The notes beneath the pieces are model-generated. The model ran no database searches, was not told where the DNA came from, and worked only from the letters and a program-made list of their open reading frames with translations. Shown in pieces: positions 4,155-44,847 of a DNA stretch of 64,000 bases. Both the position numbers and the translations under genes were made by a program. The stretch's first letter is position 1, and the number at the start of each line of letters is the position of its first letter. The stretch is from Poseidonibacter ostreae (lineage in GTDB: Bacteria > Campylobacterota > Campylobacteria > Campylobacterales > Arcobacteraceae), in assembly GCF_009208075.1 (NCBI RefSeq), contig NZ_WFKJ01000011.1, positions 1 to 64,000 on the forward strand. The letters run 5' to 3'.

Positions 4155-4973
4155 CTAAAGCCAAATATTATCTAATAGTCTTGTTTTCCCAAATCTTACT
4201 ACTATTAGAATAATACTATTTTTTAATTCAATTTCATTTATTTCATTAAACTCTCTATCTACGATAGCTACATATTCTACATCTAAGTTTTTCATAATCT
4301 CAAGTATTTTATTTTTTATAATAGTTGTATTTAATTCACCTTTAGCTACTAAAGCTCCTGCTGAATATAAAGATTTTGAGATTAATAATGCTTCACTTCT
4401 TTGTTCAGTACTTAAGTATACATTTCTAGAACTAAGTGCTAATCCGTCATTTTCTCTTACTATTTCACAAGGAACAATATTGATTGGAAGAAATAAATTT
4501 TTTACCATTTGAGAAATCAATGAAAGTTGTTGCGCATCTTTTTTACCAAAATATGCATTTGTAGCTTGAACAATTCCAAATAGTTTTAAAACAACTTGTA
4601 AGACACCATCAAAATGTCCAGGTCTAGTAAGTCCTTCTAAAATATAGCTTTTATTTGGAGCTTTAATTAAAACTTCTTCTTTTGAATACATAGTTGAAAT
4701 TTCAGGCATAAATAAATAATCAACTTTACAAAGTTCACATATTCTTTTATCTGCTTCATCACGTCTAGGATATGCATCTAAATCTTCTCCTGGAAGAAAC
4801 TGTGTAGGATTTACAAAAATTGAAACAATTACGATTTCATTTTCTAATCGGGCTTTTTTTATAAGTGAAATATGTCCATCATGTAAAGCTCCCATAGTTG
4901 GAACAAAACCAACATTTGAACTTATTGTTTTTCGTATATTTTGTAATTGTTCAATAGTTTTTAATATTTGCAA
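4155..4973 (-). CDS. panC: Pantothenate synthetase PanC
   Basis: A 272-residue enzyme that condenses pantoate and beta-alanine with ATP to form pantothenate, the coenzyme A precursor. The ATP-binding block [16 protein letters not shown] near residue 22 includes the HIGH-like HDGH, and FGKKDAQQL and LSSRNVYLS are further conserved family blocks. The length is normal. The start is a TTG at 4971-4973 preceded by AAGGA at a 7-base spacing. It lies alone, with panB and panD not in the window. Confidence 0.96.
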
Positions 4974-5005: not shown

Positions 5006-5566
5006 TCAATTTTGAGTTTTACTTTCAATATTTTTTAATATACCTATTAATATGTATCCAAAACCAATTTCTATAATACAAAGTGTTTGACTAAAAAATC
5101 TAAGTTGTTCTGAATTTAGAAACATTGATAGAAACAATAAAAATATAGAAGTTAAAAATAATACATTTGCGTGTAGTTCATAAATTTTTGTTTTTATTAA
5201 GTACGAAAGAATTAATGAGAATATGGAAATTATAAAAATCCATAAAGTATAAACAAAACTATATTCATCAATTTTTAAAGATAAGATACTAAAAATACTC
5301 ATAAAAATAAAAATACTAATAGCTATTTTAAAAATAAATATTTGCATGGAAGTAAAGTTTTTAATTTGCATTAATAGGTTTTGTTTTTTTGTTAATCTGT
5401 AATCAATAAAGAGTCCAAGAAAGATAAAAAGAGTTATAAATACAATACCAAAAACTAAAGAATAAGATAAAAGAGTTTGAGAAAATGTAAATAAAAAACT
5501 AGCAATTACTCCCCAAGTAATTAAAGCCCTATAATCATAGGGAATAAGATTCTTATTTCCCATCAT
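5006..5566 (-). CDS. Polytopic membrane protein of unknown function
   Basis: A 186-residue hydrophobic protein with about six predicted membrane segments and no soluble domain. I do not recognise the family. Its start (tandem ATG ATG) overlaps the end of the upstream ABC permease gene by 14 bases, so it is very likely co-translated with that gene and may work with it. Phe, Ile, Leu and Ser dominate the composition. There are no conserved charged motifs that would mark a transporter class. Confidence 0.75.
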   Translation of the reverse strand: MMGNKNLIPYDYRALITWGVIASFLFTFSQTLLSYSLVFGIVFITLFIFLGLFIDYRLTKKQNLLMQIKNFTSMQIFIFKIAISIFIFMSIFSILSLKIDEYSFVYTLWIFIISIFSLILSYLIKTKIYELHANVLFLTSIFLLFLSMFLNSEQLRFFSQTLCIIEIGFGYILIGILKNIESKTQN

Positions 5567-42457: not shown

Positions 42458-44311
42458 TTGCTAAAAGAGCTTTTTACAAAGATACAAACACAAAATAATA
42501 GCTATAGTAAAATTGAATTAATTGAAATTGAGAAATTTATAAAAAAAGGTATTATTATAAAATTAGATAATGATTTCTATGAACTTAATTCAAAATATAA
42601 AGTTGCAATTGTTAATGTAGGAAAAAACTTAGTAATACTAGAAGATTTAGTAAGTGAACACAAAAATATTAAAATAGAGTTTGATAATTTAAATGGTGCA
42701 TACAATGGAGATTTAGTATTAGCTAAAAGAGTTTTTAATCCAAGGTCAAGAATCAAAGCTAATATTATTGAAATCTTAGATGGTAAAAAAAATGATATTT
42801 TAGTTTATATAAAAGATAAATCTTTTTATACAGTAAAAGAGAATATAAAATTAGAAAACAAAGGTGCATTACAATATAAAGAAGGAGATGTTCTTCTTGT
42901 TGTTAATCAATCTTTAGATTTAGTAAAAAACTTAGGAAATATAGAAGATCCTAAAGTCGATGAGTTAATATCGTTACACTTATACCATGAAGAGATAAGA
43001 TTAGAAAAACCTTTAGAAGTTGATGCGAAAATGGATGATAAAAATCAAAGAGTTGATTTAACACATCTTCCTTTTTGTACAATTGACCCAAACTCTGCAA
43101 AAGATCACGATGATGCGATTTATTATGATGAGGAAGAAAAAGTATTATATGTAGCTATTGCTGATGTATCTTATTTTGTAAAAGAGGGAACTGCTCTTGA
43201 TAGACTTGCATTTTTAAAATCTACTTCAGTTTATCTACCAGGAAAAGTATTACCAATGCTTCCAAATGAATTAAGTGAAGATATGTGTTCTTTAAAAGAA
43301 GGCGTAAATAGGTACTCTTTTGTATTTAAAATATATTTAGATTTACAAAATAAAAAAGCAAAAAAAGCACAACTTTTTGAAGCAATTATAAATTCACATA
43401 AAAAATTCTCTTATGGAAGAATTGATAGGGTATTAGAAGGACATTTAGACCAGTATTCAAGTGTTGATAAAACAATTTTTGATTATTTACTTCCTTTATA
43501 TGAAATTACAAAAAGTTTTAGAGCTAAGAGATTAGAAAAAGGCTATGATTTTAGAACAACAGAATTACGGCAAAAACTAAAGAATTTTAAAATAGTTGCA
43601 GTTGAAAGTGAAAGTTCAACTGCTTCTCATCAACTAATTGAAGAGTGTATGCTTTTAGCAAATATAGAAGCTAGTAAAAAAGTAAATACAGTTGGAATTT
43701 ATAGAATACATGAAGAACCATCTTTAAAATCAATTTCAAGACTAGTTGATGATGTAAATATTTTAGGTGTAAAAGTTAAAATACAAAGTGATGTTCATGA
43801 TACAATTACTCATATTCAAAAGAAAGCAAAAGCTTCTATGATGAGTGAAGAGATTGATGAACTTATTATTCAATCACAAACTCAAGCTAAATATTCTTCA
43901 AAAAACTTAGGACATTTTGGTTTAGGATTTTCTTCATATTCTCATTTTACATCTCCTATTAGAAGATATTCAGATTTAGTGTTACATAGAATGCTAAAAT
44001 CAAAACAAACACCTAAAGATATTGATGATATTTGTTCTCATATTTCACTAAATGAAAGAAAAGTTGATCAACTTGTTTGGGATTTTGAAGATAGAAAATA
44101 TGCGCGATGGGCCAATGATAATATTGGAGCAATGATAAAAGTAAAAATCGTAGATACTGAAAGAAGTAGAGCAGTTTCTTATGATGCTATTTCTGGATTA
44201 AAAGTAACTATTGATAATATAAAAGGTCAAAAACTTTTTACAAAATTAAAAGTTAAAATTAAAGAAGTAGATATAGTTACAAAACAAATTATTGCAAGTA
44301 TTAAGTATTAA
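42458..44311 (+). CDS. rnr: RNase R-like exoribonuclease
   Basis: A 617-residue RNB-domain 3'-5' exoribonuclease. The catalytic block TIDPNSAKDHDDAIYYDEE is near residue 210, HFGLGFSSYSHFTSPIRRYSDLVLHRML near 490, and a C-terminal S1 domain ends the protein. It is shorter than E. coli RNase R, as in Helicobacter and Campylobacter. The start is TTG 42458 with AAGGA upstream. In H. pylori rnr is next to holA and rpsF, as here. Confidence 0.92.
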   Translation: MLKELFTKIQTQNNSYSKIELIEIEKFIKKGIIIKLDNDFYELNSKYKVAIVNVGKNLVILEDLVSEHKNIKIEFDNLNGAYNGDLVLAKRVFNPRSRIKANIIEILDGKKNDILVYIKDKSFYTVKENIKLENKGALQYKEGDVLLVVNQSLDLVKNLGNIEDPKVDELISLHLYHEEIRLEKPLEVDAKMDDKNQRVDLTHLPFCTIDPNSAKDHDDAIYYDEEEKVLYVAIADVSYFVKEGTALDRLAFLKSTSVYLPGKVLPMLPNELSEDMCSLKEGVNRYSFVFKIYLDLQNKKAKKAQLFEAIINSHKKFSYGRIDRVLEGHLDQYSSVDKTIFDYLLPLYEITKSFRAKRLEKGYDFRTTELRQKLKNFKIVAVESESSTASHQLIEECMLLANIEASKKVNTVGIYRIHEEPSLKSISRLVDDVNILGVKVKIQSDVHDTITHIQKKAKASMMSEEIDELIIQSQTQAKYSSKNLGHFGLGFSSYSHFTSPIRRYSDLVLHRMLKSKQTPKDIDDICSHISLNERKVDQLVWDFEDRKYARWANDNIGAMIKVKIVDTERSRAVSYDAISGLKVTIDNIKGQKLFTKLKVKIKEVDIVTKQIIASIKY

Positions 44312-44346
44312 AAAAGGGAAGATATTTATTATCTTCCCTTTTTTTT
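44310..44346. terminator. Bidirectional rho-independent terminator
   Basis: Stem GGGAAGATA/TATCTTCCC (44316-44338, 5-base loop) flanked by six A and eight T. It separates rnr from the convergent repeat-protein gene. Confidence 0.92.
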
Positions 44347-44367
44347 AATCTTTAATCTTCTAAGTGA

Positions 44368-44724
44368 TTAACAAGAAGTTTGAACTCTAGTATCTACATT
44401 TTCTTCTGGATAAAAAGCAGTTAAAGTACAATGTTCAATTGAACTTTTTGCAAGTGTTTGAAAAACTTCACCTTTGTTATCACTAAAGCTTGCTAAATAA
44501 TCTGGTGTATCATTGTTTTCAAGTGGATAAAAAGATGCAAATGTATTATCTTGTGTTGATGCTTTTGATAATGTTTGATAAGCTTCTACTTTGCTATTAT
44601 CTAATAAATAAGATGGAGTATCGTTATTCTCAAGAGGGTAAAAACTTGAGAAATTATCATTTGCACTTAATGCACTACCTACTACTAAACTTAATCCTAT
44701 AATTGTTGTTGTTAATTTTTTCAT
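44368..44724 (-). CDS. Small secreted protein with three FYPxENxDT repeats, unknown
   Basis: A 118-residue protein with a signal peptide (1-20, ending ALSAND). The mature part is made of three copies of a motif: FSSFYPLENNDTPSYL, FASFYPLENNDTPDYL and LTAFYPEENVDTRVQT. They are separated by 25-29-residue linkers holding YQTLSKAS, FQTLAKSS or similar. The last part has two Cys (HCTLT and the C-terminal TSC). I do not recognise the family. Its position behind fliW, with its own signal peptide and a terminator below, suggests a periplasmic or secreted protein. Confidence 0.8.
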   Translation of the reverse strand: MKKLTTTIIGLSLVVGSALSANDNFSSFYPLENNDTPSYLLDNSKVEAYQTLSKASTQDNTFASFYPLENNDTPDYLASFSDNKGEVFQTLAKSSIEHCTLTAFYPEENVDTRVQTSC

Positions 44725-44847
44725 TTTTAAAATCCTTAATTTTATATTGTTTTATATTTTGTAGTTGAATTATAGGATTTCTTTGTGAAGCTTACGTAAA
44801 GGGTTCGTTTACTCTTTGTGTAGTAGAAGAAATGATTGTTAGTATAA

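Follow-up and report, generated by a model that had tools for sequence, protein, structure and literature searches.

Exported FYP-repeat proteins of Poseidonibacter: a lineage-restricted family with a possible role in envelope and copper stress

What does a short gene between rnr and a fliW-like gene of Poseidonibacter ostreae, encoding three FYPxENxDT blocks, do for the cell? The gene lies in a 64,000-nucleotide stretch of DNA (the window), and its features are collected in Table 1. As shown below, it is real, previously undescribed, multicopy, and narrow in distribution. We propose, with a probability of roughly 45%, that its product is an exported envelope-stress protein under the control of an OmpR/PhoB-family regulator, copper being the likeliest stress.

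Table 1. Positions of the gene, protein, and transcription features within the window
Feature	Position	Strand	Remarks
Type I FYP-repeat gene, 118 aa	44368..44724	-	ATG 44724, stop 44368
Sec-type signal peptide, residues 1-21, MKKLTTTIIGLSLVVGSALSA	44662..44724	-	Read by eye
Repeat core 1, FYPLENNDTPSYL, residues 28-40	44605..44643	-	
Repeat core 2, FYPLENNDTPDYL, residues 65-77	44494..44532	-	
Last repeat between Cys99 and Cys118, CTLTAFYPEENVDTRVQTSC	44371..44430	-	
TATAAT -10 element	44769..44774	-	Read from sequence; conserved in alignment of copies
TACAC-N6-TAAAC-N6-TTTAC-N6-TTCACA, four 11-bp-spaced half-sites	44784..44822	-	Proposed OmpR/PhoB-family array
Terminator hairpin, 15 pairs, between gene and rnr	44310..44344		Reported for + strand
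Duplicated unit, 516 bp (promoter, gene, terminator)	44309..44824	-	Second copy at G000:C102

The open reading frame is complete, lies on the minus strand, is preceded by an AAGGA ribosome-binding site, and begins with a Sec-type N terminus, in agreement with the secreted protein described, with no strand named, in an initial annotation. Removal of MKKLTTTIIGLSLVVGSALSA, with the cleavage site set by eye, would leave a mature chain of 97 residues. The three FYP blocks, likewise described in that annotation, begin at residues 28, 65, and 104, and the internal repeat score is 108, compared with 49 for the best of 1000 shuffled sequences. As the block starts are spaced by 37 and 39 residues, the true repeat is 37 to 39 residues long. 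The 16-residue motif of the initial annotation therefore survives as a conserved core of ~13 to 16 residues within a longer unit, and the third unit (FYPEENVDTRVQTSC), with the core FYPEENVDT, is divergent rather than near-identical. The two C-terminal cysteines, Cys99 and Cys118, were correctly noted and flank the last core.

Several observations bear on the nature of this protein. The dN/dS ratio was 0.20 to 0.33 in five closer pairs of relatives, which shows that the frame encodes a protein under purifying selection and does not merely appear coding by chance; other, more diverged pairs gave values of 0.24 to 0.66. The FYP chain is acidic (net charge of -10), and the mature window protein contains no Met, one His, and no Met-rich motif. 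Structure prediction with AlphaFold2 on 15 sequences yielded no confident model (pLDDT 39, pTM 0.16), so the check suggested with the initial annotation gave no fold. The low confidence obtained with 15 sequences may reflect either disorder or a shallow alignment.

The family to which the gene belongs is defined by a signal peptide followed by two or three FYPxENxDTPDYL-type units at the 37- to 39-residue spacing, all of which are present in the window copy. This copy matches the family profile with an E value of 4.7e-54, the profile having been built with this sequence included, and a single-sequence search with the window protein also recovers other members. Whole-genome searches detected relatives in 8 of 10 Poseidonibacter genomes, one of which (G007) holds a remnant only, and in one genome of another genus (G017). 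Ten of the 104 genomes of the bacterial family passed the threshold, as did 6 of 399 genomes in an order-wide sample. Both counts include G027, in which the match covers nothing but the signal peptide. Relatives were thus seen in Poseidonibacter and one other genus. Two branches can be distinguished: type I proteins of 117 to 120 aa, the kind encoded in the window, and type II proteins of 119 to 144 aa, which share 43 to 46% identity with type I. In the type II proteins of G017, G008, and G003, too, the last unit lies between two Cys; the 144-aa type II proteins carry the pair in the C-terminal tail. Divergent, partly truncated copies occur in G008 and G009 as well. At the site occupied by the window gene (site A), the loci L049 (G008) and L047 (G009) contain two tandem divergent copies in which the frame ends after the last FYPxEDxD core, so that the C-terminal Cys is lost; one of the G008 copies enters masked sequence.

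Searches of Pfam, NCBIfam, PHROGs, PADLOC, PDB, Rfam, and plasmid, phage, and viral collections returned no convincing relative. The statement that no known family shows this pattern was upheld, and the concern that the frame might be a fragment of a known family found no support in these libraries or the PDB. Matches to LysM_RLK (E 0.04), to phrog_5676 (E 1e-4, covering 22 residues in a type II protein), and to a heme oxygenase model, well short of its cutoff, were judged to be due to chance or repeat driven. A match in G002 (E 1e-3 to 1e-4) was rejected as a relative, the frame encoding a porin-like protein; a G001 match in the same E value range lies in a frame of the same length. A precursor of multicore ribosomally synthesized, modified peptides (RiPPs) is disfavored, because the signal peptide is of the ordinary Sec type and no modifying enzyme was recognized beside the copies that were read.

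Genomic context is most informative for the type II branch, whose genes lie in copper islands of G000, G001, G003, G008, and G017. The island at G000:C2 contains four tandem type II genes that encode identical proteins, the DNA of the array being 99 to 99.7% identical. Upstream of this array lie an ArsR-type regulator and a heavy-metal P-type ATPase, and downstream lie a thioredoxin-like gene, a Met-rich multicopper oxidase, CopB, and a His/Met-rich protein, followed by an OprD-like porin, an OmpR-family regulator, and a DUF411 gene (with Pfam assignments); more regulators, a porin, and a histidine kinase are found further on. The clusters of G003, G008, and G017 are comparable, the copper ATPase of G017 lying ~14 kb from its cluster on the same contig. 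Given this consistent genomic placement, a copper link of type II is well supported.

The slot immediately downstream of the ATPase, on the same strand, was inspected at 30 ATPase loci. Among these, it is occupied by a type II gene in G000, G001, G003, and G008 and by a gene for a secreted, Met/His-rich protein of 69 to 74 aa in G027, G112, G107, and G076. The two kinds of protein share, besides the slot, similar signal peptides (up to 20 of 20 residues identical) and promoters with 11-bp repeats. In contrast, Met, His, and Cys together make up 12 to 17% of the Met/His-rich proteins but only 3 to 4% of the mature FYP proteins, and the mature type II and Met/His-rich chains show no similarity beyond chance except for isolated short matches. 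Derivation of the FYP repeat from the tail of the Met/His-rich proteins was considered and is unsupported by sequence comparison. The initial suggestion that the acidic blocks could bind metal thus receives indirect support, in that type II homologs are regular members of copper islands; the blocks themselves as ligands are unsupported, as is the binding of a polymer.

Two further observations were made at type II loci. A stretch of 5621 bp is 100% identical between two species (G000:C129, L033; G001:C34, L041) and contains a type II FYP gene, thioredoxin-like and DsbA/DsbB-like genes, a permease, and an ArsR-type regulator, with a transposase-like frame beyond the shared stretch in G001:C34. 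This identity could stem from a recent transfer, but also from a contaminant common to both or a problem of assembly. In G017 (L046), the type II upstream region and signal-peptide start are repeated with 97% identity at positions 4597-4733 and 5104-5240, the repeat preceding an adjacent gene for a His/Met-rich protein, which appears to be a sign of module shuffling.

The promoters of the two branches have the same layout but different box letters. Aligned intact type I copies share TACAC-N6-TAAAC-N6-TTTAC-N6-TTCAC-like boxes followed by a TATAAT-like element, and the window promoter has these direct repeats, at ~11-bp spacing, next to the -10/-35 region. The type II and ATPase-slot promoters carry TTCC-type boxes, also with 11-bp spacing. 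Period-11 identity was 0.51 against 0.31 expected in the type I set (reached by 0 of 5000 column permutations) and 0.57 against 0.33 in the type II/slot set (2 of 5000); both sets were chosen after inspection and include related sequences, and the figures are descriptive. In pattern searches of 13 genomes, the type I box array with 0 to 1 mismatches occurred only at FYP genes, other matches having 2 to 3 mismatches. In Sulfurospirillum, repeats in the register of these boxes are the binding site of an OmpR-family regulator (PMC7755780). On the strength of homology and promoter architecture, we infer a copper link for the window gene as well. A further four-box, 11-bp-spaced promoter-like site with a TATAAT element, conserved in several Poseidonibacter genomes, faces the 3' end of mfd at G000:C69 (L065, 2417-2470, plus strand). 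No open frame of at least 80 aa lies behind it, and it possibly serves a small RNA or a short peptide gene.

We suggest the following course of events. An OmpR/PhoB-family response regulator would bind the four half-sites, which occupy the place of a -35 element, and would turn the gene on under envelope stress, most probably copper excess. The mature chain, with its three acidic repeats and the Cys pair around the last, would build up outside the cytoplasm, where the exported protein (periplasmic or released) would act in bulk, in a sacrificial or metal-buffering manner. As the chain is acidic and poor in Met, His, and Cys, copper handling, if any, would be unusual and might involve the Cys pair or bulk buffering. 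The type II branch, its sister, would do the same job inside copper islands, with the position and the style of signal peptide and promoter that Met/His-rich proteins have elsewhere. The window gene is a type I copy outside these islands, multiplied as a promoter-gene-terminator unit.

Some findings count against copper as the signal for type I. No type I gene was found inside a copper island, and the neighbors of the window gene show no linkage to copper transport or oxidation. Type I-like genes occur in G004 and G009 without this ATPase or a typical type II gene, and G002 presents the reverse, this ATPase but no FYP gene. Moreover, as the box letters of type I differ from those of type II, the signal may differ too. 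These findings suit an explanation that we consider a serious one while leaning against it, namely, that type I answers another signal, such as stationary phase or oxidative or nitrosative stress, through its own OmpR-family regulator and encodes a general periplasmic protective or chaperone-like protein, copper being confined to type II. In Campylobacter jejuni, for example, DccRS switches on periplasmic and membrane protein genes when cells are in late stationary phase (PMC9449129). However, given the common ancestry of the two branches and their shared promoter layout, a shared theme is simpler.

Type I genes are dispersed as promoter-gene-terminator units of ~516 to 560 bp. The hairpin that ends the window unit has its T run on the plus strand and an A-rich arm that could serve the minus strand. 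The unit is 99.8% identical to the copy at G000:C102 in the same genome, and the flanks are unrelated. The single-contig chromosome of G003 contains four copies that are 95 to 98% identical over ~550 bp, three of them encoding the same protein and the fourth differing by one residue. Site A is empty in G001 and G004, where rnr and the convergent fliW-like gene overlap at their stops, and site B is empty in G003, G005, and G007. Presence or absence can be read at these two sites only, as the flanks of sites C, D, and E are noncontiguous in relatives. In G007, site A holds an FYP remnant (L009, G007:C59, 1438-1602), the last 33 residues of which are fused to the start of the fliW-like frame.

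In the phylogenetic tree, the site A copy of G003 groups with the C, D, and E copies of its own genome in the C clade (100/100), apart from the site A copies of G000 and G006, which indicates that copies within a genome have been homogenized. Gene conversion could account for this, as could repeated insertion, alone or in combination. The defined unit with unrelated flanks, its two to four near-identical copies, its absence from two loci in sister species, and a possible short duplication of AGTATTAAATACT, seen at site A only, could also mark a selfish small mobile element with the protein as incidental cargo. This seems improbable to us, as no inverted repeat spans the unit, no transposase was recognized in it, its ends are a promoter and a terminator, and the protein is under purifying selection; gene conversion between paralogs fits the homogeneity as well. 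Similarly, an adhesive, calcium-binding, or envelope-lining component of the surface or matrix, whose acidic, aromatic repeats would bind a polymer or non-copper divalent ions, would accord with the exported, acidic tandem repeats and with a copy number that differs between genomes, but it deserves little credence for so short a chain with no recognized anchor, adhesin domain, or surface-sorting signal and with a sister branch whose placement points to copper.

The envelope-stress reading can be compared with known systems in Campylobacterota; for Poseidonibacter and copper, a literature search returned nothing relevant. Helicobacter pylori CrdA, under CrdRS, is a CopC/PcoC-like periplasmic copper protein (PMC9182242; PMC9449129), and CrdRS, like C. 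jejuni DccRS, has periplasmic proteins under its control (PMC9449129). The FYP proteins resemble CrdA in being small, exported, and tied to copper resistance and an OmpR-family two-component system, a tie that for type I would run through the proposed regulator. However, CrdA has the Met-rich motif MMXEMPGMXXMXEM and no His, whereas the window protein has FYPxENxDT repeats and a Cys pair instead; homology to CrdA, CopC, or PcoC is unsupported, as the Met-rich copper site is absent from the mature window protein and Pfam and PDB gave no match. With Sulfurospirillum RR2, the window promoter would share OmpR-family regulation and direct repeats separated by six bases close to the -35 region (PMC7755780), and with DccRS the OmpR-family control of accessory or periplasmic genes (PMC9449129). 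Differences lie in the half-site letters and in the four boxes, and the regulator of the window gene is a proposed one.

A more far-reaching scenario, which we regard as unlikely in its entirety, is that the FYP proteins form a new copper-responsive exported class. Their protective effect would depend not on Met/His motifs but on the acidic, aromatic FYPxENxDTPDYL repeat, with an end closed by Cys. Such proteins would have replaced the Met/His-rich proteins in the Poseidonibacter copper island and then spread through genomes as an autonomous unit of promoter, gene, and terminator, with concerted evolution preserving its uniformity.

Overall, the proposed envelope-stress function provides a first testable role for a lineage-restricted and previously unnamed protein family. 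The presence of type II in the slot of the Met/His-rich proteins suggests that one protective protein was swapped for an unrelated one, the export and promoter signals of the two being similar. The type I copies offer a compact case of a gene that was dispersed and homogenized within genomes together with its promoter and terminator, sister species having empty sites.
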